From positions 195 through 40,033 of the forward strand of contig NZ_AQWM01000033.1 in NCBI RefSeq assembly GCF_000376105.1: DNA of 39,839 nucleotides, given 5' to 3'. Origin of the DNA: Asticcacaulis benevestitus DSM 16100 = ATCC BAA-896. GTDB taxonomy: Bacteria; Pseudomonadota; Alphaproteobacteria; Caulobacterales; Caulobacteraceae. Shown here piece after piece: positions 14,380-39,839 of this stretch; position 1 is the first letter of the stretch; every line of letters begins with the position of its first letter. Made by a program: the position numbers and the translations under genes. The notes beneath the pieces were generated by a model. It ran no database searches. It was not told the origin of the DNA and was given only the letters and a program-made list of their open reading frames with translations.

Positions 14380-14381
14380 TC

Positions 14382-16817: not shown

Positions 16818-16927
16818 GGTCATCTCCTGAAACTTTGATCGGCCGTGCCAGACACGCCGCCGTTTCAGTCATGCGCTGCCGGCTTGTAAAATAACAATGT
16901 GGCGGCTGTTTCGGCAGCTTTGTTTCC

Positions 16928-19974: not shown

Positions 19975-19989
19975 GGTCGAGATCTCCGA

Positions 19990-20040: not shown

Positions 20041-20236
20041 AATTTTCGCGCGCCATTGGCCGATATCGCAATTTTTCAAATAAAAACAAATACCTATGCG
20101 TGGCGAAATTTTCCGTTGTTTGAGGCGGGTGTTGCCGCGAAGATCGAAGGTCAGAGGCGTCATCAGAAAAGCGCCAGGGCGAGGAAACGCGGCATCATCC
20201 TTTTAAGGGCTTGCCGCTCAGCAACAGGAGACAGGC

Positions 20237-21607
20237 ATGGCCTACAGTTCATCCGTACCGGCGCCCGAAGAGGCGGCCAAGAAGGGCAAGTGGTACAGCC
20301 ACCTCTATCTTCAGGTGATCATCGCCATCACTGCCGGCGCCCTGATCGGGCATTTTTATCCGCAGACCGGCGAGGCGCTGAAACCGCTTGGCGATGGCTT
20401 CATCAAGCTGGTGAAGATGATCATCTCGCCGGTGATCTTCCTGACCATCGTGACCGGCATCGCCGGCATGGGCAGCTTGAAAGGTGTCGGCAATGTCACC
20501 TGGAAAGCCTTCGCCTATTTCTTCACCTTCTCGACCCTGGCCCTGATCATTGGCCTCATCGTTGCCAATGTGGTGCAGCCGGGCCACGGCATGAATATCG
20601 ATCCCGCCACCCTGCACAACGAAAAGGTGGCCGAATATGCCGCCAAGGCGCATGAGAGCACGATCACCGGCTTCCTGATGGGGATTATTCCGGACACCTT
20701 CGTCTCGGCCTTTACCCAGGGCAATATCCTTCAGGTGCTTTTCATCGCTATCCTCTTCGGCATCTCGCTGATCCTGATCGGCGAGAAGGCCAAGCCGATC
20801 GTCAGCTTGCTCGAATCGGTCAGCCAGGCGATCTTCCGCATGGTGAATATCCTGATGAAGGTCGCCCCCATCGGTGCCTTTGGTGCCTTCGCCTTCACCA
20901 TCGGTAAATATGGCATTGCCTCGGTCGTGAACCTGGCGGCGCTTGTCGGCACCTTTTACTTTACCTCGGCCCTGTTCGTGGTCGTGGTGCTGGGCGCCGT
21001 CGCCGCCTTCAATGGCTTCTCGATCTTCAAGCTGATCGCCTACCTCAAGGCCGAACTGCTGCTGGTGCTCGGCACCTCGTCGTCGGAATCAGCCCTGCCC
21101 AGCCTGATGGAAAAAATGGAAAAGGCCGGCTGCGCCCGTCCGGTCGTGGGCCTGGTCGTGCCGACCGGCTATTCCTTCAATCTCGACGGCACCAATATCT
21201 ATATGACCCTGGCGGCCCTCTTCATCGCCCAGGCCACCAACATCCACCTGACACTTGAGCAACAGTTGCTGCTGCTTTCGGTGGCCATGTTGTCGTCCAA
21301 GGGCGCCGCGGGCGTCACCGGCGCCGGCTTCATCACGCTGGCCGCCACCTTGTCGGTCGTCCCCACCGTGCCGGTGGCCGGCATGGCGATCATCCTGGGC
21401 GTTGACCGCTTCATGTCGGAATGTCGCTCGATCACCAACTTCATCGGCAACGCCGTCGCCACGGTTGTCGTCAGCCGCTGGGAGAAGGCCGTTGATATGG
21501 ACGTCTTCAAGGCGGCGCTCAATGGTAAGCCACGCGCCATTGCCCCGGTTACTCAGGTCACCACCCTCACGCCGGGCCTTCAGGCCGGTGAGCAGAGCGC
21601 GGACTAG
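20237..21607 (+). CDS. dctA: C4-dicarboxylate:cation symporter DctA
   Basis: The 456-residue protein is a dicarboxylate/amino acid:cation symporter. It shows the family signature [10 protein letters not shown] (serine-rich re-entrant loop), [12 protein letters not shown] and the C-terminal [15 protein letters not shown]. There are about eight membrane helices plus two re-entrant loops. It imports succinate, fumarate and malate. CAGGAG lies 7 bases before the ATG. It is divergent from dctBD and followed by a terminator, then by a porin gene that may share its function. Confidence 0.95.
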
Positions 21608-21629
21608 TCCGGCCCGCCTCTGAAACTTA

Positions 21630-21670
21630 AAGCCCCGCCGATTTCGCCACATTTCCGGTGGGGCTTCTTT
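21630..21670 (+). terminator. Intrinsic terminator after dctA
   Basis: A 10-bp stem (21630-21639 with 21657-21666, one G-T pair) is followed by CTTTCC. It starts 23 bp after the dctA stop and 42 bp before the porin ATG. Confidence 0.75.
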
Positions 21671-21707
21671 CCTTAAAAAACATAAACCTGCACCCCACGG
21701 AGACGAC

Positions 21708-22415
21708 ATGTCGTACACCGAAGCCTTTCGCCTGCCCGCCCTTATGGCCGTCACCCTCCTTGCCGTAGCCGCCGTACCGTCCCATGCCGAAGCGCTACAG
21801 CCCAAGCTCTCCGGCCAGATCACCTTTCTGTCGGACGGGATCTATCGCGGCGTCAGCCAGACCGATGGTCAGGCGCAATATATCGCTGGCGCGCAACTCG
21901 CCTATGGCAATGTCTTCGTTGGCACCCTGTTCAAGTCCATGCGCGATCCGTCCACGGGCGTCGATAATCAGGTTCAGGCGCTGATCGGTTACAAGACGGC
22001 TATCAAGGGCTACGATGTCACGGCCCGCGCCATCTACAAGCAGTATAACGGCACCAAACCGGGCGTCGATAACGACTTCATGGAATACGAGGTCAATGTG
22101 TCTCACAAGCTGGCGGCCATGACCACGGCGCGCCTGACCCTGGCCTACAGCCCTGATAATTACGGCAAGGCGAAGGAGGCCACCTATTCCGAGATCGTGC
22201 TCGAACAAAAGATCCGGCCGAACTTCAGCGTTCAGGCCGGCACCGGCTTCCGCCACAATGCCGGCAGCGTCGATTACAGCACGGCCCTGCTGGGCGCGAC
22301 CTACACGACCAAGCACAAGCAAAGCCTGTCTCTCACCTATACGCACACCGATCGGGCTGAGCTTGGCGACAAGTATGGTGACAGCCTGTTCGTGACGCTG
22401 TCACAAAAGTACTGA
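21708..22415 (+). CDS. TorF-family putative porin
   Basis: The 235-residue protein has a signal peptide (cleavage near SHA-EA, residue 27) and then a beta-barrel-like mature part of the Gcw_chp/TIGR02001 type, with the typical opening SGQITFLSDGIYRGVSQTDG and repeating amphipathic strands. The C-terminus ends in aromatic Tyr (LSQKY), as outer-membrane barrels do. Members often sit beside transporters and two-component systems and are thought to let small solutes cross the outer membrane. Next to dctA, passage of C4-dicarboxylates is likely but inferred. Confidence 0.88.
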   Translation: MSYTEAFRLPALMAVTLLAVAAVPSHAEALQPKLSGQITFLSDGIYRGVSQTDGQAQYIAGAQLAYGNVFVGTLFKSMRDPSTGVDNQVQALIGYKTAIKGYDVTARAIYKQYNGTKPGVDNDFMEYEVNVSHKLAAMTTARLTLAYSPDNYGKAKEATYSEIVLEQKIRPNFSVQAGTGFRHNAGSVDYSTALLGATYTTKHKQSLSLTYTHTDRAELGDKYGDSLFVTLSQKY

Positions 22416-22515
22416 GCCTGAAAGCGACATTCTGACTGGTCAAGGGCGGGCGCTCGCCACCCACTGTCCGCAGATCGCGCGTCTTAACAATCTATGAGGG
22501 AGGTTTTGCGTGCTC

Positions 22516-22528
22516 TTGGTCAGACCAA
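22516..22528. promoter_or_regulatory. Perfect palindrome TTGGTCAGACCAA, candidate FadR-type GntR operator
   Basis: The site is TTGGT-CAG-ACCAA, a perfect 5-bp dyad with a 3-bp centre, fitting the T-N-G-T-N3-A-C-N-A operator pattern of FadR-subfamily regulators. It lies in the 538-bp gap upstream of the TonB receptor, whose next gene encodes such a regulator. Confidence 0.6.
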
Positions 22529-22568
22529 CAGGTAAAAAGTAGTACAATAAAGTGTTTCAGTATTTAGG

Positions 22569-22757
22569 CCTTACCAATATCAAGGCCGGCCGTTAATGAG
22601 GTATCTAAAGGTCATTTGGTGATTTGTAATATTTTATCCAGTGTAATCAATATTCAAAGGCGTTTTCGGATATGTAATTCTTTCCGTTGCCCTTTAATGG
22701 CTGCATCGAAGCCTTTCGGTGTTGCATAAATGTAGCTCGCCTTATCAATTGGTAAGG
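22569..22757. repeat. Inverted CCTTACCAAT copies in the receptor leader
   Basis: CCTTACCAAT occurs on the plus strand at 22569-22578 and as its reverse complement at 22748-22757. The second copy is half of a near-perfect 18-bp dyad (22740-22757, one mismatched pair, centre AATT). Function unknown; binding of a second regulator is possible. Confidence 0.5.
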
Positions 22758-22798
22758 CCAACTTGACGTAACGCCAATTCACCTTCTAGTTATGTGCC

Positions 22799-22821
22799 TA
22801 TACGCAAGTCTATTGCGTATA
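22799..22821. promoter_or_regulatory. 23-bp palindrome upstream of the second TonB receptor
   Basis: Perfect 9-bp arms TATACGCAA (22799-22807) and TTGCGTATA (22813-22821) flank a 5-bp centre, 133 bp before the receptor ATG. A possible -35 TTGACG lies at 22763-22768. The symmetry and position suggest an operator or a structured leader. The remaining gap (22416-22953) is AT-rich with no gene. Confidence 0.55.
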
Positions 22822-22953
22822 TGCCTGCGCTTTTGGCGGCCCATTGTCCGATAGTTTTCGGGGAGAGGCGGCACGCGACACAGAGACCGGATGAGACCGG
22901 CGGCCTTTGTGTCTGCGCTGCAGGTATGAATACATAAAAAAAGAGGGAACATT

Positions 22954-25917
22954 ATGGACTATTCAACAACACATCGTGGTGCGCGTTTTCGTGCGTTTTT
23001 GACAGGGGCGACCTTTCTGGCCGGTCTGGCCGTATGGCCTGCCTGCGCCCAATCATCGGGACAGGAGGCAGCGGCGGCGACGCCGGCGGATGACACCGTT
23101 GTGATCATCACGGGCTATCGCGGCTCGCTGCAAAGCGCCACCAAGGCCAAGAAAAACGCCACCAATTTTACGGAAACGATCTTTTCGGAAGATATCGGCA
23201 AGTTCCCTGACCTGAACATGGCTGAAGCCTTGCAACGTGTGCCGGGCATGATCGTGCAGCGCGACGCCTTTACGGGCGATGGCACCCAAATCGTTGTGCG
23301 CGCCCTGCCTTCCAATTTCACCCAGGTGACCATGAACGGCAACCGGATCGCCATGGCGACCGACAACGGCATATCGGGTTCGAGCTCGACCAATCGGCAG
23401 GTCGATCTCGACTCCTTCCCGACAGGCCTTTTCAACCGGGTTGACGTCTCCAAGACGCCCAGCGCCAGTGAGCTTGAGGGCGGCGTGGCCGGAACCGTGA
23501 ACCTGCAGAACGTGCGGCCGTTCGACCGTAAGGGCGAACATGGCGCGCTGGCGATCCAGGAAAGCTATGGCGTCAATTCGGAGAAGTTCTCGCCGCGTAT
23601 AACGGGCGTATGGTCCAAAACGTGGGATAAGTTCGGCGTGCTGGCCGGCATTTCGATGAGCGAAAAGAAGCTGTACACATCCGGCTATGAAACGCTTGGT
23701 TTCGGCGATCCCAACTTCAACAACTATTGCGGCGCGTGCGACCCTGCCGTGACCAAGGATGCGTCCGGCAATTTCATCAATCCGGAAGGCTCTAACCAGT
23801 GGGCCTGGAGCAATACGGTCTATCCTTACACCGGCAACGGCCTGACGCCGGGCACTCTGACGGAAGCGGACCTGCTCGCTTTAAATCCGGGCATGACGGA
23901 AGCAACGATGAAGGGCGCCAAGATGCCGCGCCTTGGCCGTGCCTCCCTGCTTGACGGTACGTCGAAAACGAAGGTCGGCCTCATCGCCCTGGAGTATCGG
24001 GCAAGTGAGACGCTGAAATTCAACCTCGATATCCTCGGCGGCGGTGGTGACCGTGACGCGGAACGCACCAATATGATGCTGACCTTCCGCAGCACCGGCC
24101 CCGGCGATGATTATAATGGCGGCATGATCCCTCTGAACATGAAGGTCGACCAGAATGATATTGTGACATCGGCCACGCTTGCCAATTCGAACTTCTTCAT
24201 GGAATCCAACTTCTACCGCGACAAAAACGCCTATTGGAGCGCCAAGGGCAGTTTTGAATGGTTGTTTGGAAATAGCTGGAAGCTGGATGGTGAAATGGCG
24301 TTCATGCGTTCGACCTACGAACGTAATGTGACCTTCTTGAAATACCGCACGCCTTTTCAATCTAATGTTACCGCTACCTATGAAAATGTTGAAGGTAATG
24401 ACGTCCCGACCATTACGTCCAATGTCAATCTGAATGATCCGACCATTGGCTGGCGCACCTTTGTCGGCCAGACCATCATGCAGCGTGACAAGCGCAATGC
24501 GGTCACCAAGGCGCTGCACCTGGATCTCAGCAAGGAGTTGGGCGATTGGACGTTCAAGGGTGGCTACGCCTATGATAATTACCAACGCAATATCAATGTC
24601 ATAGACTTGTCGCAGGCCTTGAAGGACGCCTATGCGGCGGCCATACCGGAATCGGATGTGTCCCAGTATCTGACGCCGATGACACGCTCCATCTATTCGG
24701 GCGATGTGTCCGGGGGTGGCTTCAACAAGTGGGTCTTCCCTAATTTTGACAAGATTTCAAAAGCCGTTGGCTATGACTCTTTGATCAATGGGAAGGGCAC
24801 CACCTCTACAGGCGGTTCCTATAATGGGGCCGGCGCGGCTACGATCCAGGAAACGATCACGGGCGCCTATGCCATGACAGCCTATAACGGACAGCTCTTC
24901 TCCTATCCGGTCAGATCCAATTTCGGCGCACGCTTTGTGTCGACGGATCAGAAGGTAACGGCGCCTTCGGTCATTGGCGGCAATATTGTCTATCTGAGCA
25001 CCAACGCCAGCTATGAAGACGTCCTGCCTTCGTTCAACTTTGTCACCAATGTAACGGACAGCGTCAACCTGCGCTTTGCCGCTTCCAAAACCATGACCCG
25101 GGCGAATCCTGCGCTGCTGACCTCGTCGCTTAGCCTTGATACCACCGCGTCTTCCGGAAATACGGGCAACCCGAACCTGAAGCCGTTCTACTCGAACAAT
25201 TTCGATATCGGGGGTGAGTACTACACAGGAAAGACGGGCTATATCGGCCTGACCTTCTTTAAGAAGGACATCCAGAACTTCACCTTCAATAAGGTGAACT
25301 CTGTGCCCTTTTCCTCTTTAGGTGTTGATTATTCAACCCTGAATGAAAATCAGCAGCAGGGACTGGCCCTCAATGCCGGCGTCACCTGGGCAGCTGCTCT
25401 GGCCAATCCGTCTCTGGTGTCGGGCGCGAACGTTAACATGACGCAACCGACCAACCTGACAGAGATTATGAAACTCACAGGTCAGGAAATGATTTGGGTT
25501 CAGCCCCTGGATAACCTGGTTGAAGGGCTTGGCTTTACCACCAACTACACGCACTTCAGCGTAACACCGGCTAAATATGCTTTCGGTATCCCGGACTACA
25601 CCTATAATCTGACCGGTTACTATGAGCATGGCGGCTTCTCTGCGCACCTCAGCTATGTGAAGGTCAGCGAAGTCGTTACCGGGGCGCCGCTGCAGGCCAA
25701 TAATATTATCCTGGCCGCCAATAATGAAGCGCGTCACCAGATCGATCTGTCGGCGTCCTATAAATTCAAGGCTTTTGGCATCGAGCAGAGCATTACGCTC
25801 GATGCGACCAACCTCGATAATCAAGGCTTCAAGAGCTACTATACCTATACCAATATGACGACGGGTTTCCAAAGTCCGGGGCAAACCATCCTGATTGGCT
25901 GGCGCGCTCAATACTAG
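22954..25917 (+). CDS. TonB-dependent receptor (Xanthomonas/Caulobacter type)
   Basis: The 987-residue outer-membrane receptor has a signal peptide (cleavage near ACA-QS, residue 33), a TonB-box-like VVIITGYRGSL, and a plug with the family wording SEDIGKFPDLNMAEALQRVPG, then RALPSNFTQVTMNGNRI and VDLDSFPTGLFNRVDVSKTPSASELEGGVAGTVNL. The barrel ends in aromatic Tyr. This is the long TonB-receptor subfamily typical of Caulobacterales and Xanthomonadales, usually linked to complex sugars. It is followed by a strong terminator and a GntR regulator gene, with xylan/xyloglucan enzymes beyond. It lacks the extra N-terminal domain of the receptor at 2805. Confidence 0.95.
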   Translation: MDYSTTHRGARFRAFLTGATFLAGLAVWPACAQSSGQEAAAATPADDTVVIITGYRGSLQSATKAKKNATNFTETIFSEDIGKFPDLNMAEALQRVPGMIVQRDAFTGDGTQIVVRALPSNFTQVTMNGNRIAMATDNGISGSSSTNRQVDLDSFPTGLFNRVDVSKTPSASELEGGVAGTVNLQNVRPFDRKGEHGALAIQESYGVNSEKFSPRITGVWSKTWDKFGVLAGISMSEKKLYTSGYETLGFGDPNFNNYCGACDPAVTKDASGNFINPEGSNQWAWSNTVYPYTGNGLTPGTLTEADLLALNPGMTEATMKGAKMPRLGRASLLDGTSKTKVGLIALEYRASETLKFNLDILGGGGDRDAERTNMMLTFRSTGPGDDYNGGMIPLNMKVDQNDIVTSATLANSNFFMESNFYRDKNAYWSAKGSFEWLFGNSWKLDGEMAFMRSTYERNVTFLKYRTPFQSNVTATYENVEGNDVPTITSNVNLNDPTIGWRTFVGQTIMQRDKRNAVTKALHLDLSKELGDWTFKGGYAYDNYQRNINVIDLSQALKDAYAAAIPESDVSQYLTPMTRSIYSGDVSGGGFNKWVFPNFDKISKAVGYDSLINGKGTTSTGGSYNGAGAATIQETITGAYAMTAYNGQLFSYPVRSNFGARFVSTDQKVTAPSVIGGNIVYLSTNASYEDVLPSFNFVTNVTDSVNLRFAASKTMTRANPALLTSSLSLDTTASSGNTGNPNLKPFYSNNFDIGGEYYTGKTGYIGLTFFKKDIQNFTFNKVNSVPFSSLGVDYSTLNENQQQGLALNAGVTWAAALANPSLVSGANVNMTQPTNLTEIMKLTGQEMIWVQPLDNLVEGLGFTTNYTHFSVTPAKYAFGIPDYTYNLTGYYEHGGFSAHLSYVKVSEVVTGAPLQANNIILAANNEARHQIDLSASYKFKAFGIEQSITLDATNLDNQGFKSYYTYTNMTTGFQSPGQTILIGWRAQY

Positions 25918-25935
25918 AACGCTCTAAACGCTTGC

Positions 25936-25977
25936 GCCGGGCCTACCCCCTACCTCAAGGGGCAGGTCCGGCGTTTT
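25936..25977 (+). terminator. Intrinsic terminator after the second TonB receptor
   Basis: A long stem (25936-25949 with 25959-25972, one G-T pair and one mismatch) is followed by G and TTTT, 19 bp after the receptor stop. A clear terminator that separates the receptor from the regulator gene. Confidence 0.85.
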
Positions 25978-25987
25978 GTCATGGGCC

Positions 25988-26015
25988 AGGGCGTTGCAAA
26001 CAGGGCGTTGCAAAT
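25988..26015 (+). repeat. Tandem 14-bp direct repeat upstream of the GntR gene
   Basis: Two adjacent copies of AGGGCGTTGCAAA plus one base (25988-26001 and 26002-26015) differ only at the last base. They begin just after the receptor terminator and lie 21-48 bp upstream of the predicted GntR promoter -35 box, a usual place for an activator. Confidence 0.8.
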
Positions 26016-26035
26016 TGGAGCCGGCTCGATATGGC

Positions 26036-26065
26036 TTGAAACCCGCAACAGAACTATTCTACACT
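26036..26065 (+). promoter_or_regulatory. Predicted promoter of the GntR regulator
   Basis: TTGAAA (26036-26041), an 18-bp spacer and TACACT (26060-26065) give a good sigma-70 match. The expected start site, near 26072, lies downstream of the ATG at 26067, which supports use of the ATG at 26100 instead. Confidence 0.55.
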
Positions 26066-26099
26066 GATGACCGTATCTGGCTTCGCCGGACGGAGGAAG

Positions 26100-26891
26100 A
26101 TGAACGTGTCGGCAGGCCAGGCCCCTAACAGACTTTACCGAAATGTTGCCGATCAGATTGTCGCCATGATTAAGGACGGCACTTTTTCCGCGACGGGCAA
26201 GCTGCCGCCGGAGCGCGATCTGGCAGACTCCCTGGGTGTGAGCCGGCCCACCATTCGAGAGGCCATGATCGCCCTTGAAATTCTCAACATCGTCGAAATC
26301 CGTGATCGCTCCGGCATCTACGTCGTTCAGGGACAGGCCCGTGAGGGCAAGCTGTCCGAGGGCATGGATCTGCCGACGGACGATCTGAGCGTAGGCGCTT
26401 TTGAGCTGGTTGAAGCCCGTATCCTTATCGAGGGCGATGCGGCCGGTCTTGCGGCGGAAGCGGCCTCTGCCGATGATGTCGACACTCTGAACGACTATGT
26501 GCTTCACATGGAATCGACCGACCCTGACGTTTGCGAAACGGCGGATCGGAATTTCCATATCCACATCGCCTCCATGACGCACAATGGCGCGCTGATCGCG
26601 GCCATAGAGTTGCTGTGGGATTTGCGCAAAAAATCTCCCCTTGCCACCCAGATCATGTCCCGGGCGCGCGGGGGAGGGCTTGGCGCCCGCATTCTTGAAC
26701 ACAAAAACATCATCAGCGCGCTCAAGGCGCGTAATCCATCCGCTGCCCGTCAGGCCATGCGCGAGCATCTGGAGGGGGTGCGGGAATACCTGCTCGATGC
26801 GACAGAGACGGCGGAAATAGAAGCGCTCAAAAGGCAGCTCAAGCAAAAAAGGCAGACGGTCTTGAGCCGAACCAAGATCATAGTGCCCTAG
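26100..26891 (+). CDS. GntR-family regulator, FadR subfamily (FCD domain)
   Basis: The protein has 263 residues from the ATG at 26100, which has GGAGGA 2-7 bases upstream. The winged helix-turn-helix (about 8-75) includes LPPERDLADSLGVSRPTIREAM. The FCD ligand-binding domain (about 95-235) shows the expected acidic and histidine ligands in VEARILIEGDAAGLA, FHIHIA, LEHKNIISAL and MREHLEGV, consistent with a metal-bound pocket for a sugar acid. Such proteins often repress uronate or sugar-acid genes until the ligand binds. Position between a TonB receptor and glycosidases, and the TTGGT-N3-ACCAA site upstream of the receptor, suggest local control. Ligand not known. Confidence 0.92.
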   Translation: MNVSAGQAPNRLYRNVADQIVAMIKDGTFSATGKLPPERDLADSLGVSRPTIREAMIALEILNIVEIRDRSGIYVVQGQAREGKLSEGMDLPTDDLSVGAFELVEARILIEGDAAGLAAEAASADDVDTLNDYVLHMESTDPDVCETADRNFHIHIASMTHNGALIAAIELLWDLRKKSPLATQIMSRARGGGLGARILEHKNIISALKARNPSAARQAMREHLEGVREYLLDATETAEIEALKRQLKQKRQTVLSRTKIIVP

Positions 26892-26922
26892 CTAGTCTGG
26901 GCATTTTGCCTTAGAGCCCGTG

Positions 26923-27123
26923 CTATGAAACCGGTCTGTTGTCGGGCGGGCCGAAGTCGCTGTCGGGCAGTCTCGCGCCACTGACGATAATCTTTTGAAC
27001 GACCAGCCCCGGGTCCACCATGCTCACGCGCAGGACATGCTGACCGGCATGGTCGAGATGAAAAGCGCTGGTCAGGTATCGGGTCGCGGTCGATTTTAAG
27101 AAAAGCCTGCGACTTTGTTCCAT
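26923..27123 (-). pseudogene. C-terminal remnant of a GH115-like alpha-glucuronidase
   Basis: The 66-codon reading resembles the extreme C-terminus of GH115 xylan alpha-1,2-glucuronidases: TRYLTSAFHL, then GQHVLRVSMVDPG, VVQKIIVSG and a closing GPPDN. In full enzymes this stretch ends a beta-sandwich domain of a protein of roughly 900 residues; nothing of the rest is found here. The fragment is in the same frame as the upstream GH31 gene, whose TAG stop is only 14 codons before its ATG. It looks like the leftover of a deleted gene, though translation by coupling to GH31 cannot be excluded. Confidence 0.55.
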
Positions 27124-27165
27124 AGGTCGTCTGCCTGAATCGTCCGGCGGCCCAACCCTCAGGCG

Positions 27166-30099
27166 CTATGGCCTGAAGGAGAGGGTTTCCGCCTTGCCGC
27201 TATATACAATCGTTTTTGACGGGGCCGCCGGTTCGCCGCCGGTTGCGTTGCCGGGGGCGGCGATGACGATGTTCAGGGTTCGCGAGGTGACCAGCCCCGG
27301 ATAGGTGCCCTTGCGTGCGCCGATCGAGAGAGTTTGCGCCTTGTCATTCCACGTCAGATCATAGGTCGCGTACTGGCCCTTTTCATAGTTGTACGTTTCG
27401 TTGTCGTCTTCGTAGAGGGTGAAGGTCGCGTCTGCGCCGGGATAAACGCGGATTTCATAAGGGGCGTCGGGCTTCTCGGTGGCGTATTGCTGAACCGGTC
27501 CCATCGGAACAATCGAGCCCGCCTTGACGTAGAGCGGGATGATATCCAGCGGCGCCTCGCGGGTGACGGTCTGGCCGCCGTCGAGACGGGCGTTGGTATA
27601 GAAGTCATACCAGCCGGTCCCCTGCGGCAGATAGGTGGCGACCTTGAAATCGAGGCCTTTGTGAGCGGAAGCCAGCGCCTTGATCTGGCTTGGCGTGCGC
27701 CAGGCGAGGCGCAGGCTGCGTTCTGAGCCACCCTGGTAATATTCGATCTTGAGGGGAACCCTTTCGCCCGCCTTGAGCGTGACCTTTGCGCTCTTGTAGC
27801 GTTTGGCGCCATTGTTCCAGTCTTCAATGACCTTTTCACCCTTCAGGAACAGGCGGAAGCCGTCATCGCCTTCCACCCCGATTTCATAGTCACCGTCTTC
27901 AGGCGCTACAAGTTCGCCTTCCCAGCGCGCGGAGAAGTGGTCGAGCCCATCGAGGCCTGCAGGCGGTTGCGCCAAAGGCGGCCCCGGCCATTTCAGGTCG
28001 AGCGTCGCATCCACCGTCTTGCCCTTGGGGGTTTCAAAGTTCTCGCCGGCAAAATACTGCCCTTCCAGTCCCGCCTGACCGGCTTTGGTGCGCAGGGCGC
28101 TCGAAGGTATAGTCTCCGCCGGCGGATTCTGGATGTGATACATCGGGCGCGTGACCGGATGAACGAGCAGCGACCCGCCAAACATGAAGGCGTCATTGAT
28201 GGCATAGGTCGTCTTGTCTGCGGGGAAGTCCATCGGCAGGGCCCGCATCAGGGTATAGCCGTCGGAGGTCACCTTCCAACTCAGGCTGTAAATATAGGGC
28301 AGCAGGCGGTAGCGCAGGTTCACACTCTTGAGAAGCGAGCCGTACATCTCCGGATCAAGATCCTTAAAGATATAGGGTTCGCGCTCAATGCTGGTGCCAT
28401 GAACCCGGAAGATCGGGTTGAAGGCGCCGAACTGGAACCAGCGGGCGAAAAGCTCACGATAGGCCGGATTTTGTTCGCCGCCGGGAAACTCGGTGACGAA
28501 GAAGCCACCGGTATCCTGCGACCAGTAGGGATTGCCGGTAATGGTGACATTGGTGCCGCCATTGATCTGCTCGCCGAAGGTCTTCCAGTTGGCGAAAATA
28601 TCGCCCGACCACGAGGCCGCGCCGGTGCGTTGCGCCCCCGCCCATGCCGAGCGTGTCAGGGTGAAAACGCGCTTGTCGCTGGTGGCGCGCTGGCCGTCAT
28701 AGGTGCCTTGCGTCGTCATCAGGGTATAGGGATTGAGATAGCGCGTGAAATCACCGAGCGCATTCTTGCCCAGGCTCTTGATATCGCGGATGTTATCGTC
28801 CGGATCCCACGCCGCCGTGCCGACCTCCACCTCGGTGCCGTCCATCCACAGCGCGTCGACGCCCTTGTCGAGCAGGCCCTGCTTTATGTACTTGAAATAG
28901 ATCTGCCGGCCGAGCGGGCTATAGGCGTCATAAACGCGCGCGTGTTTCGAGATCCAGTGCAGCGGTTCGAAACGCAGGCCATGAGAATCCAGTTCCTTAC
29001 CGAGTTCGGTGTCGTTGCCGACCGACGGCCAGATCGAAATCATCAGTTTCAGATGTTCGTCGTGCAGCGTCCTGATCATGCCTTCCGGATCGGGATAGCG
29101 CTCCTTGTTCCAAATCATACCGCTCCAGGTGCCGTCGGTGTCGCTGCCCCAGTATTGCCAGTCCTGAACGATGTAATCGAGCGGGAATTGCTTTTCGCGG
29201 AAGGTGCGGGCCACCTCCAGCAGGCGGTCTTGCGTCTTGTAGCGCTCCTTGCTCATGAACAGGCCAAACGCCTGTTTGGGATACATCGGCGCCTCGCCCG
29301 TCAGGTGACGATATGACTTGACCACGTTGTCGATGCTGTCGCCACCCATGAAGTAGTAATCGACGCCGCCCGGCGCGCTCTCGGCCCAGAGCGTGGCGCC
29401 TTCGGCATTGTCCTTGAACGTCATCTTGGAATAGGTATCCCAGAGGATGCCGTATTTTTCAGACGAGACCATGACCGGAATGACGATGCCGGTATTGGTC
29501 TGGACCAGCAGGATATCTTTGTTGCGACGGTTGAGCTCACCCTCGTCGATGAAGCCAAAGCCGAATATGCCCTCGTCGGGTTTAAGCGTGAAGGTATTTT
29601 GCGCCTCATAGGTCGGCGCGCCGGAGATGTCGACCGGTTTGAGGTTTTCCGGGGCCTTGGCGCGTTCGCGGGTATAGACCTTGCCGGTGGCATCCTTGAA
29701 GGTGAGGGCGCCCGAAGATTTATCGACGACGATGGTCAGTTTTTCCGAAACGATACTGAGCTCGGTCGGTGTTTCCCTGATGTCAAAGGCCACGGCTGTC
29801 GGCTTGTCGACGACGACGATGCTCGGCGCGGTCCAGTAGTTTTTGCCCAGGTTCGCATTGATGCGCACGGTCTGCGGGCCATAGAAGATGATGTTCTTGG
29901 TGATGCCGTCATGGGTGATCTGCACGCCGTCTGCGAGGCGGGTAAAGGACAGGCCGGCCTTAACGGGCGCTTCCACCTTCAAAAGGTGGCCATTCGCATC
30001 GAGGCCGGTCGGCGCCGCAGCGCCCGCCATAGCCGGCAAAAGCGCCAGAAACGACACGCATGTCGTTAGGAGAAGCGTCTTTGTAGGCAGATATTTCAT
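27166..30099 (-). CDS. GH31 glycosidase with PA14 insert (alpha-xylosidase-like)
   Basis: The protein has 977 residues from the ATG at 30099, chosen over an upstream start at 30201 because it begins directly with a signal peptide (cleavage near AGA-AA, about residue 28) and has AGGG upstream. Domains run: N-terminal beta-sandwich; (beta/alpha)8 barrel with nucleophile Asp420 in ALWMDGTE and acid/base Asp500 in WSGDIF; a PA14 domain near 680-810 (GLEGQYFAG, then EDGDYEIGVEGDDG); and C-terminal beta domains. A PA14 insert in this family is known from CjXyl31A, an alpha-xylosidase acting on xyloglucan oligosaccharides. Exported alpha-xylosidase is the best call; alpha-glucosidase is the alternative. 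Confidence 0.9.
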   Translation of the reverse strand: MKYLPTKTLLLTTCVSFLALLPAMAGAAAPTGLDANGHLLKVEAPVKAGLSFTRLADGVQITHDGITKNIIFYGPQTVRINANLGKNYWTAPSIVVVDKPTAVAFDIRETPTELSIVSEKLTIVVDKSSGALTFKDATGKVYTRERAKAPENLKPVDISGAPTYEAQNTFTLKPDEGIFGFGFIDEGELNRRNKDILLVQTNTGIVIPVMVSSEKYGILWDTYSKMTFKDNAEGATLWAESAPGGVDYYFMGGDSIDNVVKSYRHLTGEAPMYPKQAFGLFMSKERYKTQDRLLEVARTFREKQFPLDYIVQDWQYWGSDTDGTWSGMIWNKERYPDPEGMIRTLHDEHLKLMISIWPSVGNDTELGKELDSHGLRFEPLHWISKHARVYDAYSPLGRQIYFKYIKQGLLDKGVDALWMDGTEVEVGTAAWDPDDNIRDIKSLGKNALGDFTRYLNPYTLMTTQGTYDGQRATSDKRVFTLTRSAWAGAQRTGAASWSGDIFANWKTFGEQINGGTNVTITGNPYWSQDTGGFFVTEFPGGEQNPAYRELFARWFQFGAFNPIFRVHGTSIEREPYIFKDLDPEMYGSLLKSVNLRYRLLPYIYSLSWKVTSDGYTLMRALPMDFPADKTTYAINDAFMFGGSLLVHPVTRPMYHIQNPPAETIPSSALRTKAGQAGLEGQYFAGENFETPKGKTVDATLDLKWPGPPLAQPPAGLDGLDHFSARWEGELVAPEDGDYEIGVEGDDGFRLFLKGEKVIEDWNNGAKRYKSAKVTLKAGERVPLKIEYYQGGSERSLRLAWRTPSQIKALASAHKGLDFKVATYLPQGTGWYDFYTNARLDGGQTVTREAPLDIIPLYVKAGSIVPMGPVQQYATEKPDAPYEIRVYPGADATFTLYEDDNETYNYEKGQYATYDLTWNDKAQTLSIGARKGTYPGLVTSRTLNIVIAAPGNATGGEPAAPSKTIVYSGKAETLSFRP

Positions 30100-30495
30100 C
30101 CGGCATTTACCCTTTTTTGCGGCTCGCCTGCTGTCAGCCGATCTCATGCTGCCAGACCAACGCAAGCCTTGTAAGATGGAGAGTATCCTCTGCACGCACA
30201 TGGCTGCATCTTGATTGAGGCGAAGTCCTGTTTGTTTCCTTTAGACCGCGTCTTTAAGCGCGCCTGACATGCTTTCACTCTACAATTTCATTGGAACAGA
30301 TCTGGGAGCTGGCATGCATTGTCGCCAGATCAACCTGAAGCTTCGCAAGGTGTGAGCGGTATCAATTTATCGCCGGGTTGGAATAAGTCAATCGCTTATG
30401 GCCGCGAAAGACACGTAAGAATTGCCTTATATTTAAAAATAGTTTTTATTAGAGGCAGCCGGCGCAAGACTCGGCGCTTTATCAGGGAGCCTCCA
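30100..30495. promoter_or_regulatory. Divergent control region between GH31 and GH43-CBM6 genes
   Basis: This 396-bp gap must hold both promoters. On the minus strand, TTGGTCTGGCA (30160-30150), about 55 bp before the GH31 ATG, keeps one half of the TTGGT-N3-ACCAA site seen at 22516. I see no clear consensus promoter boxes, no LacI-type site and no RNA gene here. CAGGGA (30483-30488) is the ribosome site of the GH43 gene. Confidence 0.35.
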
Positions 30496-31890
30496 ATGTC
30501 TGTGCGCAGCTTAATGTATGCGGGTTTATTCGCTGTGGCCGCCTTATGCGCTGCACCCTCGTCCTTCGCGGAAAACCCGATCATCCAAACGAATTTCACC
30601 GCCGATCCGGCGCCTCTTGTGCACGATGGCGTGGTCTATCTCTACACCAGCCACGATGAAGATGACGCCAACGGCTTCAAGATGCTGGACTGGCGGCTTT
30701 ATGCCTCCACGGATATGGTCAACTGGACCGACAAGGGCGTTGTGGCATCGCTGAAGACCTTCCCGTGGGCCGTACAGGACAATGACGCCTGGGCGCCGCA
30801 GGTGGTGGAGCGCGACGGCAAGTTTTACATGTACGTCCCCATCAGCGTTGCCGGATGGCCGAAGAATGTGATCGCCGTGGCGGTCGCCGATAAACCGGAA
30901 GGGCCCTTCCGCGATGCGCTCGGCAAGCCTTTGATCGATAAGGCGGAGGGCTATTTTGACCCTACCGTCTGGGTCGATGATGACGGCCAGGCCTATCTGT
31001 ACTGGGGCAATCCGAACCTTTGGTACGTCAAGCTCGACAAGGACATGGTCTCCTATTCCGGAAAGATCGAGAAAGTCGCTTCCAAGCCGGCCAACTACCA
31101 GGAAGGCCCCTGGTTTTATAAGCATAAATCGAAATATTACCTGGCCTATGCCTCGACCTGCTGCCCCGAAGGCATCGGCTACGTCATGAGCGACAAGCCC
31201 ACCGGACCGTGGACCTACAACGGCGATATCATGGCCGGCAATCCGGGGGCGACCGGCAACCATCCCGGCATCATTGACTACAAGGGCAAATCCTACGTGT
31301 TCGGCTTCAATTATCGCCTGAATTTTGCCGAAACGCCGATCCATCACGAGCGGCGATCGGTTACCGCTACGGAACTCACCTACAATCCCGATGGCACGAT
31401 TCAGCTCCTGCCGTGGTGGGATGGTGTCGGCGCCAAACAACTGCATACGCTATCTCCTTATGAGCGGGTCGAAGCCGAAACGATTGCCTGGACGTCCAAA
31501 GTCAAAAGAGACAGGGATCGTCCGATCGACTGGGCGCCGGGCGTCAAAACCGCCAAAAGCGACAAGGTGGGCATGTATCTCACGCGTATCACCGACCTGA
31601 CCTATACCAAGGTCAATGGCGTTGACTTCGGACAGGCGGGCGCCTCGACGTTCACGGCCAATCTGGCCAGCGGTGGCAAGGGCGGGGTGATCGAACTGCG
31701 TCTGGATTCGGTCGATGGCCCGCAGATCGGTCGCTTGACCGTCACCCCGACCGCCGGCTGGGATGACTGGCAAACCCAGACGACCCCCGTATCCAATGCC
31801 ATGGGCACGCATGACCTGTTCCTTGTCTTTAAAGGCGAAGGCGACGCGCCGCTATTCAATCTCGACTCTTGGCGCTTTTCGAAGCCTTAA
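30496..31890 (+). CDS. GH43 glycosidase with C-terminal CBM6
   Basis: The protein has 464 residues from the ATG at 30496, with CAGGGA 7 bases upstream; the upstream in-frame reading from 30319 is AT-rich, lacks a ribosome site and hides the signal peptide (cleavage near SFA-EN, residue 25). The GH43 propeller carries base Asp37 (ADPAPL), modulating Asp155 (FDPTVW) and acid Glu203 (YQEGPW). A carbohydrate-binding module of family 6 spans about 330-464 (VEAETIAW at its start, then VIELRLDS and FNLDSWRF at its end). This pairing is common in arabinoxylan arabinofuranohydrolases and xylosidases. It acts outside the cytoplasm. Confidence 0.93.
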   Translation: MSVRSLMYAGLFAVAALCAAPSSFAENPIIQTNFTADPAPLVHDGVVYLYTSHDEDDANGFKMLDWRLYASTDMVNWTDKGVVASLKTFPWAVQDNDAWAPQVVERDGKFYMYVPISVAGWPKNVIAVAVADKPEGPFRDALGKPLIDKAEGYFDPTVWVDDDGQAYLYWGNPNLWYVKLDKDMVSYSGKIEKVASKPANYQEGPWFYKHKSKYYLAYASTCCPEGIGYVMSDKPTGPWTYNGDIMAGNPGATGNHPGIIDYKGKSYVFGFNYRLNFAETPIHHERRSVTATELTYNPDGTIQLLPWWDGVGAKQLHTLSPYERVEAETIAWTSKVKRDRDRPIDWAPGVKTAKSDKVGMYLTRITDLTYTKVNGVDFGQAGASTFTANLASGGKGGVIELRLDSVDGPQIGRLTVTPTAGWDDWQTQTTPVSNAMGTHDLFLVFKGEGDAPLFNLDSWRFSKP

Positions 31891-32184
31891 AGGCGAGGGC
31901 AGGCTTAAGCGTCGGGCTGGCGCTCCGGCTGGGCGTTTTATATGCGGTAATTATATTTGCTTGTAAATTCGCAAACAGGTTGGGTGAGGCAAAACCAAGG
32001 GGGTGGTAACCAGCACCCGCATGGCTGATATCGGGCAATTTGCTGTGAATTGGCCAGGTCGCCATGAAGCCAGAAAAGTTCGCCGGTATGCGACCCGCAG
32101 GCGTTACAAGGCTTGTGGTGCAATTGTTATATATGGTAGTGGCTCTTAAATAAGATATCTGCAAGAAAAGTAAAGTTATACCCT
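31891..32184. other. Intergenic gap with no recognised gene
   Basis: The 294 bp between the GH43-CBM6 and dehydrogenase genes are AT-richer than their neighbours. I see short readings on both strands with no family features, no strong terminator and no clear promoter. AAAG lies shortly before the dehydrogenase ATG, a weak ribosome site. Confidence 0.6.
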
Positions 32185-33195
32185 ATGAAAGCCATTGTCT
32201 GCGACAAACCTTTTTCTCTTGGCATCGAAGACAGGCCCGCACCTGTACGCAAGGCCGGCGAGGCCATGATCCGTATCCGCCGCGTCGGGCTCTGCGGCAC
32301 GGACTATCATATTTTTTCGGGCAACCAGCCCTTTCTCGCCTATCCGCGCATCATGGGGCATGAACTGGCCGGTGAGGTCGCCGAAGTTGATGAAGGCTCG
32401 TCGCTGCACATCGGGCAACTGGTTACGATCAATCCTTACCTGCCGTGTGGCGTCTGCGTAGCCTGCCGCAAAGAAAAGCCGAACTGCTGCGTCAACATAA
32501 AGGTGCTCGGCGTTCATATTGACGGCGGCATGACCGAATTCATCTGCGTGCCGGCCGATGCGGTGATCCCGGTGGAGGGGCTGTCTCCGGATCAGGCCGC
32601 CATGGTGGAATTTCTGTCGGTGGGGGCTCATGCCGTGCGTCGCGGTCAGGTGAGCAAGGCCGACAGAGCGCTTGTTGTGGGGGCCGGACCGATTGGTGTG
32701 GGCGTCGCCTTGTTTTGCAAATTTGCCGGCGCCGAGGTCAGCCTGATCGACACCAGCGCCGAGCGTCTGGCCTATGCGCGCGATAAGGTGGGCCTGGAGC
32801 ACGTGCAGCAGGTCGGGGAAGATCTCGACGCCTTCCTCACCGAGCGCTCCAACGGGGAATATTTTGACGTTGTGTTTGACGCGACCGGCAATGGCAAGGC
32901 CATCGAAAAAGGGTTCGCCTATGTCGCGCACGGCGGACGCTACGTTCTTGTGAGCGTGGTCAAGGACACCATTTCTTTCTCCGATCCGGAATTCCACAAG
33001 CGTGAAGCGACGCTGCTGGGCAGCCGTAACGCGACCCGCGAAGATTTTGAGTATGTCATCAGCAAGCTGCGGTCCGGCGCCATCCCCAGCGAGATGCTCC
33101 AGACCCACAACTTCGATCTGATGGAGACGCCGACACGGATCAAGGAACTGATCGCCAATCAGGGTTCGGTCCTCAAGGCGATAGCTACGTTTTGA
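32185..33195 (+). CDS. Zinc-dependent medium-chain dehydrogenase (sugar alcohol/sugar acid type)
   Basis: The 336-residue cytoplasmic enzyme has catalytic zinc ligands Cys37 (GLCGTD), His59 and Glu60 (GHE), and structural zinc cysteines 88, 91, 94 and 102. The Rossmann domain has VGAGPIGVG and an acidic residue in LIDTS that favours NAD over NADP. It resembles L-gulonate/L-galactonate 5-dehydrogenase (YjjN) and RspB-type proteins more than alcohol dehydrogenases. In this sugar cluster it probably oxidises a sugar acid or polyol derived from hemicellulose. Substrate is inferred. Confidence 0.88.
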   Translation: MKAIVCDKPFSLGIEDRPAPVRKAGEAMIRIRRVGLCGTDYHIFSGNQPFLAYPRIMGHELAGEVAEVDEGSSLHIGQLVTINPYLPCGVCVACRKEKPNCCVNIKVLGVHIDGGMTEFICVPADAVIPVEGLSPDQAAMVEFLSVGAHAVRRGQVSKADRALVVGAGPIGVGVALFCKFAGAEVSLIDTSAERLAYARDKVGLEHVQQVGEDLDAFLTERSNGEYFDVVFDATGNGKAIEKGFAYVAHGGRYVLVSVVKDTISFSDPEFHKREATLLGSRNATREDFEYVISKLRSGAIPSEMLQTHNFDLMETPTRIKELIANQGSVLKAIATF

Positions 33196-33196
33196 T

Positions 33197-33240
33197 GGCC
33201 TGACACGCCCCTTTGCGGCTTTGCGGGGGTGTTGACGGCC
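33197..33240. terminator. Hairpin between converging dehydrogenase and esterase genes
   Basis: ACAC-G-CCCC (33203-33211) pairs with GGGG-GTGT (33225-33232) apart from one bulged G, and outer GGCC sequences (33197-33200, 33237-33240) can close it. No T run follows. A second inverted repeat, GGCGGCGG (33266-33273) with CCGCCGCC (33305-33312), lies beyond. Confidence 0.5.
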
Positions 33241-33335
33241 AGGAATCGACCACGTGCGGTGCCAAGGCGGCGGCTCCCTCTGAGCCAAGGCCTGGCGTGC
33301 CTTACCGCCGCCGGTTCAAAGAGCTCTGAGACACC

Positions 33336-36640: not shown

Positions 36641-37672
36641 TCATGATGCCGCCACCTGGGCCGGAACTCGATACTCCTCATTTTTTGTCAGCAAGGCCCA
36701 GATTGTTCGGGCCATCTTGTTTGCCAAGGCGATTGCCACAAGCATCCGCGGCTTTCGCGCCATCATCCGCGCCAGCCAAGACCCCTCTGGAACCGACTTA
36801 CGTCCCAACCAGTTCAGGCGCGACATCGCGCCGATTATGAGTAGCCTGCGGATATCGGACTGTCCGGCCTTGGAAATTTTGCCGAGCCTTTCCTTTCCGC
36901 CGGAGGAGAACTGGCGTGGGACAAGGCCGAGCCAAGCTGAGAAGTCGCGACCGCACTCAAAGCTTTCCATAGGCGGGGCAAAGGCTTCGACGGCCAAGGC
37001 CGTCAAAGGGCCGACGCCAGGAATGGTCTGCAAACGCCGCGCCACGTCAGTTTCTTCAGCCAGTGCCTTGATCTTGTGAGTTCGTGCATCAATGCGCGCC
37101 GTTTTTTCAGCGATCTGTTTCAGTAGGTCCTGACATTCTTCGCGCATCAAATCGGGCAGGTCACTGTTCGGCTCATTCAGGATTTCTTCGATCCGGTTGA
37201 TCTGATGTATCCCCTGCGGAACCACGTGGCCGTACTCATAAAGGCAGGCCCTAACGGCGTTGACCAGTTCGGTGCGCTGATGCACAAGCCGCTCACGCGC
37301 CCGAAACAAAATGCCCCGGCTTTGCTGCTCTGGGGACTTCGGCTCGACGAAGCGCATTTCCGGCCGTTGTGCCGCGATCACGATGGCCTCAGCGTCCGCC
37401 GCATCATTTTTCTGACGTTTTAAAAACGGCTTTACGTACTGCGGTGCGATCAGCCTCACCTCGTGGCCGAGCCGGACCATCTCACGGGCCCAGTAATGCG
37501 CACTGCCGCAAGCCTCCATCACTACAACCGCCGGAGCCTTGCCCGTCATGAACTTCAAAAAACCATCCCTGGAAAGCTTCTTCTTGAACCGAACATCACC
37601 CGTCATTGAGGCGCCATGCAGTTGAAAAACAGACTTTGCCAAATCTACGCCAATCATTGTATCTTTCGTCAC
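36641..37672 (-). CDS. IS110/IS1111-family DEDD transposase
   Basis: The protein has 343 residues from a GTG at 37672, with AAAGGA 8 bases upstream; longer readings exist but lack a ribosome site. The N-terminal RuvC-like domain carries the DEDD catalytic residues Asp10 (GVDLAK), Glu53 (VMEACGS), Asp90 and Asp93 (RQKNDAADAE). A coiled region follows, then the C-terminal Transposase_20 domain with IPGVGPLTA and the serine-bearing segment near GQSDIRRLLIIGAM. No frameshift or stop disrupts it, so the element may be active. Confidence 0.93.
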   Translation of the reverse strand: MTKDTMIGVDLAKSVFQLHGASMTGDVRFKKKLSRDGFLKFMTGKAPAVVVMEACGSAHYWAREMVRLGHEVRLIAPQYVKPFLKRQKNDAADAEAIVIAAQRPEMRFVEPKSPEQQSRGILFRARERLVHQRTELVNAVRACLYEYGHVVPQGIHQINRIEEILNEPNSDLPDLMREECQDLLKQIAEKTARIDARTHKIKALAEETDVARRLQTIPGVGPLTALAVEAFAPPMESFECGRDFSAWLGLVPRQFSSGGKERLGKISKAGQSDIRRLLIIGAMSRLNWLGRKSVPEGSWLARMMARKPRMLVAIALANKMARTIWALLTKNEEYRVPAQVAAS

Positions 37673-37710
37673 GGTTGCCGTCCTTTCCGCTAAGTGGCCT
37701 ATAACACCAC

Positions 37711-38186
37711 TATTTTGGCACATTGCGATGCCGTCTGGGAGGGGCGGCAACCACCCCATCTATTTTGGTTGTGACGTGGCTTCCAGCGGAAGCCTTGTCG
37801 CCTCCCAATTCGCTCGAAGCTGGCGCACTGGCGACACGTATTTCGGAATGAGCGTGGTGAAGATGCCCAATGGAAGGCAAGCTGGTCATGACGAACATGT
37901 TGGCTCGTGGTGCCCCTTCAAACCCTCGTCATAACGTGTCTGTTTGAAGGTTTCGTGACCTCCGACTCATCGTCTGTCGGTCGTCGGTCGCGCGCCTTGC
38001 CGAACTGAATCTTGCCCAACGTTTTTTGAGCTTGAACAAGCTGAAAGCTTTTGATTGTCCGATTTGTTTGCCGACAGCCTTCATATCTGTGACGTGACGG
38101 TCTATAAGGCCGCTAAATGTCTTGATGATTGCAGCCTTCTTTGGCGCAGAAACGCATTTGCCTTTAGTCTTTGATAGTATTGAAAA
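37711..38186. other. Non-coding accessory stretch beside the IS element
   Basis: No convincing gene is seen. A perfect hairpin with 7-bp arms GGCTTCC and GGAAGCC lies at 37778-37794, and GGGG/CCCC arms lie at 37741-37757. Base composition falls to AT-rich from about 38000. Readings of 60-90 codons on either strand show no family features. Confidence 0.5.
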
Positions 38187-38255
38187 ATGAATAAAAAGCA
38201 GGCGCATAGATTCAGTGTTGCACCCATGATGGACTGGACAGCATCTTCAATATAA
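38187..38255 (+). pseudogene. dusA: dusA 5' fragment, probable integration (att) site
   Basis: The ATG at 38187 opens a 22-codon reading whose residues 7-18, HRFSVAPMMDWT, are the highly conserved start of tRNA-dihydrouridine synthase A. The match ends just after the ACA codon; the expected DRHCR continuation is replaced by unrelated codons and a stop. The 5' end of dusA is a known target of a family of tyrosine integrases carried by prophages and islands, with the core at this ATGATGGACTGGAC position. This is therefore best read as one end of an integrated or decayed element. The rest of dusA is not in the window. Confidence 0.75.
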
Positions 38256-38340
38256 TCAAATAGTTGCGAGAGCGTGGGTGCAAAACGGGTGCACTCTGAA
38301 ATAGTAAGTGCGCGAATTTTAACGTAATTTGACTGCACCC
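38219..38340. repeat. Four GGGTGCA motifs around the dusA fragment
   Basis: GGGTGCA occurs at 38276-38282 and 38287-38293 on the plus strand, and at 38219-38225 and 38334-38340 on the minus strand. The middle pair is spaced 11 bp, one helical turn. One copy lies within the dusA fragment itself. The arrangement resembles integrase or excisionase arm-binding sites. Confidence 0.65.
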
Positions 38341-38640
38341 GCCTACCGATTTGTGCGGTAATATTATGCCATGCCGCGCGAATTTGCGCTGATACTGCCT
38401 GAAGGAACTAAACCACCTTCCACATTAGTTCACAACTATACACTACAAGGGCTGTGCATGCCTTAAGTTCGCATTCGCGCCCAATCCGACATGGAACGTT
38501 GCAATAGCAGTTTGACAGGCCTTGCCCAAAAGCAGCCGACATGCTGCATGCGTCGCAATAACGTGAAACGGAAAACTCCGTCGAACAGCATACGGTTGAT
38601 CGAAATGACAAGACGGTAACTTGACAAGCAGACCCACGAG

Positions 38641-38656
38641 TACGAAGTCTTTCGTA
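38641..38656. promoter_or_regulatory. Palindrome TACGAA-N4-TTCGTA before the disrupted hydrolase
   Basis: Perfect 6-bp arms lie 17 bp upstream of the ATG at 38673, just before its GGAGG ribosome site. It could be an operator or a small RNA hairpin controlling the former gene. Confidence 0.4.
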
Positions 38657-38672
38657 TTTGTTGGAGGCAGAC

Positions 38673-39003
38673 ATGATCTTGATTTCCAGGCGCAACTTTA
38701 TAACATTGGCCTCCGCTGCAACTGTGCCCCCGTCAATCGCTCAAGCTGACCCTGTATCCGCTACGGAAGTCACATTGGCGGAACTGCCACTTCACGACGG
38801 CAGCATCCTGCGTTACAGCCTGGCAGAAGTCGTGGCGGCGTCGGGTATCCCCGCAATCAGCTTTGCCACCATTTCGCGTTATGACATCGCAAGTGCCAAG
38901 TGCTATGGTCTAACAGCTGTAGTTGAGACGGCAAAGGTCACCGTGCGCCGACTGATGTCGCACCCTGCCGGACTGAGCGCGCACGGCTTTCCTGGCTATG
39001 CTT
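38673..39003 (+). pseudogene. Disrupted exported serine hydrolase (class C beta-lactamase family)
   Basis: The ATG at 38673 has GGAGG 6 bases upstream and opens a Tat-like signal (SRRNFITLASA, ending IAQA). The start of a beta-lactamase/serine-hydrolase domain follows (GIPAISFATISRYDIASAKCYGL), and then the sequence jumps to a later part of the same fold (KVTVRRLMSHPAGLSAHGFPGYA). The stretch between, which should carry the catalytic S-x-x-K, is missing, and family likeness stops at about 39003 although the frame stays open to 39152. An internal deletion plus a 3' loss make the product inactive. Confidence 0.7.
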
Positions 39004-39141
39004 TCAAAGCGTCCGACCGTGCCGCAGAATCCCGACGATCGCGCCGCCCACCCGTTCGGCATAGGCGCTGGCCTCGCCCTGCTGACCGTGCTGGCCCCAT
39101 CCCTAGCGCTTCGCGCACCGCACCGGCCTGGGCGCTTCGAC
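38998..39141 (+). pseudogene. C-terminal fragment of an unidentified protein, in frame with the GntR gene
   Basis: From 38998 a reading with one hydrophobic segment (IGAGLALLTVLAPSLALRA) and an arginine-rich tail runs without a stop into the GntR regulator frame. It looks like the end of a membrane protein joined to the broken hydrolase by deletion. Family not recognised. Confidence 0.4.
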
Positions 39142-39839
39142 ATGAAAAGTAAAATCCCTGCAAACTCAACGGAAAGCACTGCATCCAGTTTGGCAAATAT
39201 TGTAGGTCGATTGGGGAAGGACGAACAGACGCCTCTATATCTCCAGGTGCAAAGGATATTACGGGAGGCCATCAATAACCGCCTCCTCGATCAGAACGAG
39301 GTGATACCGACTGAGCGCGACTTGGCTAAAGCTCTCGACGTTTCCCGAATTACTATCCGAAAGGCTATAGACGGCTTGGTAACGGAAGGCCTTCTATCAC
39401 GCCGTCATGGTGCCAGAACCTTTGTCGCGATGCCGGTCGGAAACAGCTCCTTGAAACTGACCTCGTTCACCGAAGATATGATTTCGCGCGGACGCAAGCC
39501 CCATTCGGAATGGATATCCAAGGCACAAGGTAAGGTCACGCCAGACGAAGCGATCTATCTCGGTTTGTCGCCTGATACGATGGTCTATCGCTTTAGACGC
39601 GTTCGCTTTGCTGACGAAAAGGCCGTGGCGCTCGAATATACAACACTACTGCGCTGCTGTTTGCCATCGCTGGAATGCGTCACGAACTCGGTGTATGAAG
39701 CACTCGGTAAGATAGGGCAGCGCCCGGTGCGAGCCCTTCAACGTATGCGTGCTGTTAACTTTACCTGTGAGCAGGCCGATCGGTTGGGCGCTCAGCTGGG
39801 AGATGCGGGATTTTTTATAGAGCGTCTGGGATTTCTTCA
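39142..39839 (+). CDS. GntR-family regulator, HutC/NagR subfamily (3' end outside window)
   Basis: The first 232 codons are present and open to the window end. A winged helix-turn-helix (about 25-95) reads TPLYLQVQRILREAI, then PTERDLAKALDVSRITIRKAIDGL and LLSRRHGARTF. The UTRA ligand domain starts near 105 (LTSFTEDMISRGRKPHSEW, then FRRVRFADEKAVALEYT). Proteins of this type control N-acetylglucosamine or histidine/sugar genes by binding a phosphosugar or related ligand. The ATG at 39142 leaves about 20 residues before the family core; its ribosome site is weak. Its targets would lie beyond the window. Confidence 0.9.
   Translation, partial: MKSKIPANSTESTASSLANIVGRLGKDEQTPLYLQVQRILREAINNRLLDQNEVIPTERDLAKALDVSRITIRKAIDGLVTEGLLSRRHGARTFVAMPVGNSSLKLTSFTEDMISRGRKPHSEWISKAQGKVTPDEAIYLGLSPDTMVYRFRRVRFADEKAVALEYTTLLRCCLPSLECVTNSVYEALGKIGQRPVRALQRMRAVNFTCEQADRLGAQLGDAGFFIERLGFL

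Follow-up and report, generated by a model that had tools for sequence, protein, structure and literature searches.

A displaced dusA start in Asticcacaulis benevestitus, probably grafted by an older island and cut off by a younger one

Near the right end of a 39,839-nucleotide stretch of the Asticcacaulis benevestitus genome (hereafter the window; G000:C33:195-40033, reaching the end of contig C33 on its right), the conserved beginning of dusA, a tRNA-modifying gene, appears and breaks off, which raises the question whether this fragment marks the attachment site of a mobile island, on which side such an island would lie, and whose dusA start was left behind. The displaced 5′ end (38187..38239, + strand) encodes MNKKQAHRFSVAPMMDW(T), that is, 17 complete codons plus two bases of an eighteenth, before the DNA departs from dusA, and translation of 38187-38255 on the same strand gives MNKKQAHRFSVAPMMDWTASSI*. 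We read it as the attL side, the chromosomal half of an attachment site whose 15-base core ATGATGGACTGGACA (38226..38240, + strand; C33:38420-38434) has no other exact copy in the genome and a single copy with one mismatch, at C4:216669-216683, inside an intact dusA. At up to two mismatches the core has 16 matches in the genome (a reversed control pattern has two). Leader included, the fragment is 89.7% identical to the intact gene over 78 bp (window 38163-38239) and is therefore not a chance likeness; translation, core, and this alignment together confirm the dusA 5′ fragment claimed in the original prediction. The further claim that the gene is cut after the ACA codon stands insofar as the fragment does leave dusA there, but identity to the uninterrupted dusA of the nearest relative, G022, ends at 38239 with TGGAC, a base short of completing that codon. 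That the whole arrangement arose from a chance match or a misassembled contig piece is hard to credit: C33 and C4 are indeed separate contigs, both broken in repeats, but the longer pattern GTNGCNCCNATGATGGAYTGG matches exactly two places in the genome at up to two mismatches (the fragment and the C4 dusA; reversed control, zero), and the fragment lies ~1.6 kb inside its contig, with a flank that agrees with G022.

Pfam Dus matches occur at three places in the genome, of which the one on C4 bears the core. The protein encoded there, the copy of the three that was scanned against NCBIfam, is DusA (489.2 bits versus a cut-off of 269), and its gene body (C4:215700-216683, − strand) is intact. Just upstream and divergent from it, adjoining the dusA 5′ end at 162 bases from the core, lies the gene of a 374-aa tyrosine integrase (C4:216846-217967, + strand; PF00589, 79.5 bits). 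Among the 327 phage records matching this integrase, those of the Burkholderia phages DC1 and BcepMigl and that of mEp460_4F5 show 36-38% identity over 87-92% in pairwise comparison, and DC1, BcepMigl, and mEp460 are named carriers of dusA-associated integrases in the parts of PMC4482086 drawn on here. The original prediction called for a full dusA and a dusA-type integrase within about 100 kb of the fragment, and for a second core; all three are present on C4, a contig separate from that of the fragment. A profile search for the directionality factor PF11112 gave no match in G000, and 14 control genomes were equally silent.

On which side the island lies, a point that the original prediction had left undecided, emerges from comparison with G022. 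The C4 DusA protein, searched against G000 and sixty relatives, found matches in 61 of 61 genomes (weak ones in G032 and G058), and G022, the nearest relative with 97% DusA identity, has an uninterrupted site: DNA resembling the fragment and the bases preceding it continues straight into dusA, with no island between. The G022 dusA start aligns with window 38057-38239 at 89.1%, the C4 dusA body and its downstream DNA match the same locus at 93.0% over 2071 bp, and G022 holds in one piece what G000 splits between two contigs. The leader and core of the fragment are 87.9% identical to the bases immediately before the G022 dusA body, and over the next 125 bp the fragment side matches G022 at 77.7% versus 49.3% for the C4 arm. 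Farther out, the left flank (9332..33271) consists of six blocks collinear with the DNA upstream of the uninterrupted dusA (92-95.5%), with ~10 kb near window 31930 that is extra in G022; the six blocks do not include a piece of 50 bases at 7933-7981 (90% to G022). The two genomes differ over 33271-38057, where G000 encodes a carboxylesterase, a histidine phosphatase, and the IS110 transposase described below, and the G022 counterpart has a 751-aa frame that by eye is S9 peptidase-like. The 100 kb region examined upstream from dusA in G022 contains no match to window positions 38240..39839. Since the DNA preceding dusA in G022 is the DNA left of the fragment, the DNA right of it is inserted, and on this sequence comparison the island lies to the right, from ~38240 to the contig end; it would finish at C4, presumably as one continuous island between C33 and C4. 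The expectation that the right end of the window borders a mobile element is thus borne out, and the attachment-site reading, which the intact dusA, the adjoining integrase, and the second core support, holds because G022, with both flanks joined, lacks an island between the fragment-like DNA and dusA.

The portion of the island on C33, its distal end (38240..39839), runs to the contig end. By eye, the bases after the displaced core (A GCATC...) look alike in G000, G018, and G011, as expected for the ends of related islands. They are followed by a 164-aa frame (38658..39152, + strand), unnamed island cargo without a Pfam or NCBIfam match, and by a GntR/UTRA regulator gene (39142..39837, + strand) that is truncated by the contig end within a repeat common to C19, C61, and C68. 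By eye the 164-aa frame had been taken for a broken serine hydrolase, an assignment that we rejected: Pfam and NCBIfam returned nothing, and the match to a beta-lactamase-family protein on C61 is weak (E 0.10). The repeat (39553-39839) also opens C19 and C61 at ~99% over 287 bp and matches C68 at 96%, and it is here that the assembly breaks. The end of C4 runs into another repeat, common to C43 and C23. The assembly does not join C33 to C4, the Pfam content of 20 frames scanned at repeat-bounded contig ends did not decide which path joins C33 to its island neighbors, and the extent of the island is not given by the assembly.

Other features that had been taken to signal the element turned out differently. 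The IS element noted at the right end of the window is an IS110-family transposase gene (36641..37759, − strand; NF033542, 307.9 bits versus a cut-off of 140) with an open 372-aa frame, and it lies left of the fragment. An AT-rich dip does exist, with 45% GC in 38000-38499, but it is local, the other 500-base windows from 32000 on having 54-63%. As for the supposedly broken genes, nothing shows them to be broken: the frame at 38658-39152 matched no family, and the GntR gene runs off the end of the contig. A promoter and terminator scan of 37900-38700 gave one promoter-like site (shuffle mean, 0.9) and zero terminators (shuffle mean, 0.9). Toward the left of the window, a tryptophan-halogenase-family gene (889-2397) precedes a run of carbohydrate-use genes (2805-31890; GH3, GH43 twice, GH127, GH31, and TonB receptors), and those from 9332 on, which G022 also has upstream of dusA, could be old island cargo.

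What, then, is the displaced start itself? Our preferred reading, to which we assign a probability of roughly 85%, is that it is the left scar of an island in dusA and was itself the graft of an older island of the same family. It looks like such a displaced graft rather than the native dusA start because its leader is AT-rich and of island type and because ~100 bp to the left there is the ruin of an integrase gene. This ruin (37966..38126, − strand) comprises two pieces matching the C4 integrase, 38126-38022 (residues 58-92, 71%, tblastn E 2.6e-10) and 38031-37966 (residues 157-178, 59%, tblastn E 0.017); it is short (35 + 22 residues), and a whole-genome search recovered the piece with residues 58-92 independently (E 6.7e-9). 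A search with the G018 integrase showed that G022 retains a shorter piece, of 32 residues (E 4.3e-6).

The leader of the fragment (38163..38186, + strand) resembles the one that the C4 island supplied to dusA and has 37% GC, within the 31-47% of the other nine leaders with an upstream integrase or ruin. All 10 such leaders together average 36.8% GC (31-47), versus 53.0% (28-79) for 30 leaders without an integrase, a set that leaves out the dusA leaders of G035, G036, G051, G052, and G057; the difference is significant with the fragment left out (Mann-Whitney p 2.6e-4), and 10 of the 30 integrase-free leaders have ≤45% GC. We also scored likeness to island leaders for 44 leaders by shuffling two-base blocks, with p values that are uncorrected for number and rough, shared ancestry and coding constraint near the start codon remaining in the test. 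The fragment scored 33, whereas the shuffles averaged 1.7 (p 0.001, the lowest value that the test can give). Among the displaced starts of other genomes, those of G036 and G051 (p 0.001) are alike to island leaders, that of G030 is intermediate (p 0.008), and no marked likeness was seen for those of G011, G015, G016, G018, and G035 (p 0.09-0.39). Low values were also obtained for G033 (0.001), G029 (0.005), and G027 (0.009), and the integrase-linked leaders of G015 and G016 resemble only each other (p 0.006-0.008). The displaced start of G018 has 35% GC with neither ruin nor leader likeness, so that low GC alone is no proof of a graft. G036 repeats the layout of G000, with an integrase ruin 99 bp from its displaced core.

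These observations bear on a simpler account, in which the fragment would be the native dusA start, displaced by the sole island that ever entered. Such a plain single insertion is how published members of the family are usually arranged (in the parts of PMC4482086 used here), and the displaced starts of G015, G016, and G035 do look native (60-79% GC, unlike island leaders), but both the ruin in G000, with its shorter piece in G022, and the AT-rich, island-type leader speak against it here, and the leader likeness would have to be explained by convergence or by the island capturing the lineage's own leader; we regard it as unlikely. Against the older graft, on the other hand, counts that a native start displaced by the older island did not turn up: neither the window nor 100 kb of G022 contains a further DusA start motif at up to three substitutions.

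The history that we propose on the two-island reading would run as follows. An older island, with an integrase of the same family, would have replaced the dusA start (graft 1) before G000 and G022 split and would then have decayed, its integrase being left as the ruin. The C4 tyrosine integrase would have recombined the core of a circular younger island with the chromosomal core, at TGGAC within the codons MMDWT. The younger island would in this way have cut off graft 1 at TGGAC, leaving it at its far end as the fragment, and put its own leader and 17 codons (graft 2) before the dusA body now on C4; this leader presumably drives dusA. The order of events, like integration and excision, is suggested by the sequence comparison. 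The leader codons in G022 do not share the frame of the dusA body, which is open from its MMDWT start; hence the older graft does not form an intact start in that genome. Alternatively, the two islands may have stood side by side at the same time, the older one losing most of its DNA and the fragment being the junction of a decayed tandem array. A tandem of two dusA islands is reported from Vibrio in the parts of PMC8409611 consulted, but G022 has the older leader and the ruin without the younger island, from which it follows that either the older island came first or the younger one left G022; loss of the younger island from G022 by precise excision would give the same difference between the two genomes. 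We find this version somewhat doubtful; it overlaps with the preferred reading, from which it differs in timing alone, and its odds are not additional.

The fragment is not a fixture of the lineage: a second core (degenerate core, ≤1 mismatch) occurs in 8 of 61 genomes, whereas conservation in all relatives would have argued against an attachment site. It lies on another contig in G000 and G015 and, in G016, G018, G030, G035, G036, and G051, on the same contig and strand upstream, 11.7 to 153.7 kb off (distances by subtraction; 153.7 kb in G018). An integrase relative adjoins dusA in seven of the eight, G035 having no integrase match, and G011 has a degenerate core copy 2.3 kb upstream. A ruin ~100 bp left of the displaced start was found in two of nine cases, G000 and G036. 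In G052 an integrase relative (57%) lies beside dusA on C6, with no second core at ≤1 mismatch; the sole candidate is a 2-mismatch match ~43 kb upstream. The dusA of G018 (C1:2199470-2200457) is divided between two frames that overlap (residues 1-146 and 143-327). Within the genus (25 genomes, G000-G024), a long integrase frame lies beside dusA in four (G000, G015, G016, G018) and a ruined one in three (G011, G020, G022); five more (G003, G009, G019, G021, G023) have an island-like leader (p 0.001) without an integrase beside dusA, and 13 have neither at that p value. Genes within 9 kb upstream of dusA, compared by simple longest-frame gene calls, are common only to small sets among 23 relatives (such as G002/G013 and G012/G017), and a downstream aspartyl-protease-like gene was found in 17 of the 25 same-genus genomes and not found in six, the loci of G001 and G018 not covering it; the upstream side of dusA is therefore the variable one. 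When 84,980 named species genomes were scanned with the integrase, 14 loci matched; identity is 58-87% in six, which come from Asticcacaulis, Phenylobacterium (twice), Brevundimonas, Palleronia, and Hyphomonas, all alphaproteobacterial genera. In G004, contig C84 carries an 87% integrase and an island-type dusA leader ending inside the core, the dusA of that genome being on C72; the break in the core is either a misassembly or a rearranged end.

Taken together, one gene start was probably replaced twice by related islands, and both grafts can still be read in the sequence, as can one integrase ruin. Whether the dusA start is, throughout this genus, an exchangeable part that islands have repeatedly replaced, with grafts outliving the islands that brought them, seems to us an even bet. 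If grafts do outlive islands, dusA would keep in its first bases a record of past occupation, even in genomes that have no integrase left. Were this general, displaced dusA starts and island-type leaders could serve to count past insertions in island-free genomes, and one could ask whether dusA expression persists through each exchange.

Islands specific to dusA, with their dusA-associated integrases, were described by Farrugia et al. 2015 (PMC4482086). In the parts of that paper drawn on here, the integrases recombine a conserved site in the dusA 5′ end, the islands supply a new 5′ end while the old one remains at the far end, excision is shown by PCR, a prtN/rdfN homologue is given for 60 of 94 islands, and Caulobacter and Phenylobacterium islands are named. 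Here, too, a tyrosine integrase lies beside the dusA 5′ end at a conserved attachment site, whose two direct repeats, one in dusA (C4) and one as the displaced start (C33), probably bound the same island, and here, too, the new 5′ end appears to come from the island and the old one to have stayed at the far end. Unlike in those islands as described there, the 5′ end left behind appears to be the graft of an earlier island, with a ruined integrase alongside. No description of displaced dusA grafts was recognized in the literature examined (titles, abstract openings, and parts of PMC4482086 and PMC8409611). Another close parallel is the pair of tandem islands IEVpaBan1a/IEVpaBan1b at one dusA in Vibrio (PMC8409611); the covered parts of that paper also report, for a Vibrio island, that a new promoter was supplied and the reading frame restored. 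The presence of two islands at a single dusA would be common to both cases, but the second Vibrio element still encodes two predicted integrases, whereas the older island here would be reduced to a ~160 bp integrase ruin and a graft. The island thus belongs to the known dusA-island family, to which the apparent serial replacement of the dusA start adds a twist.
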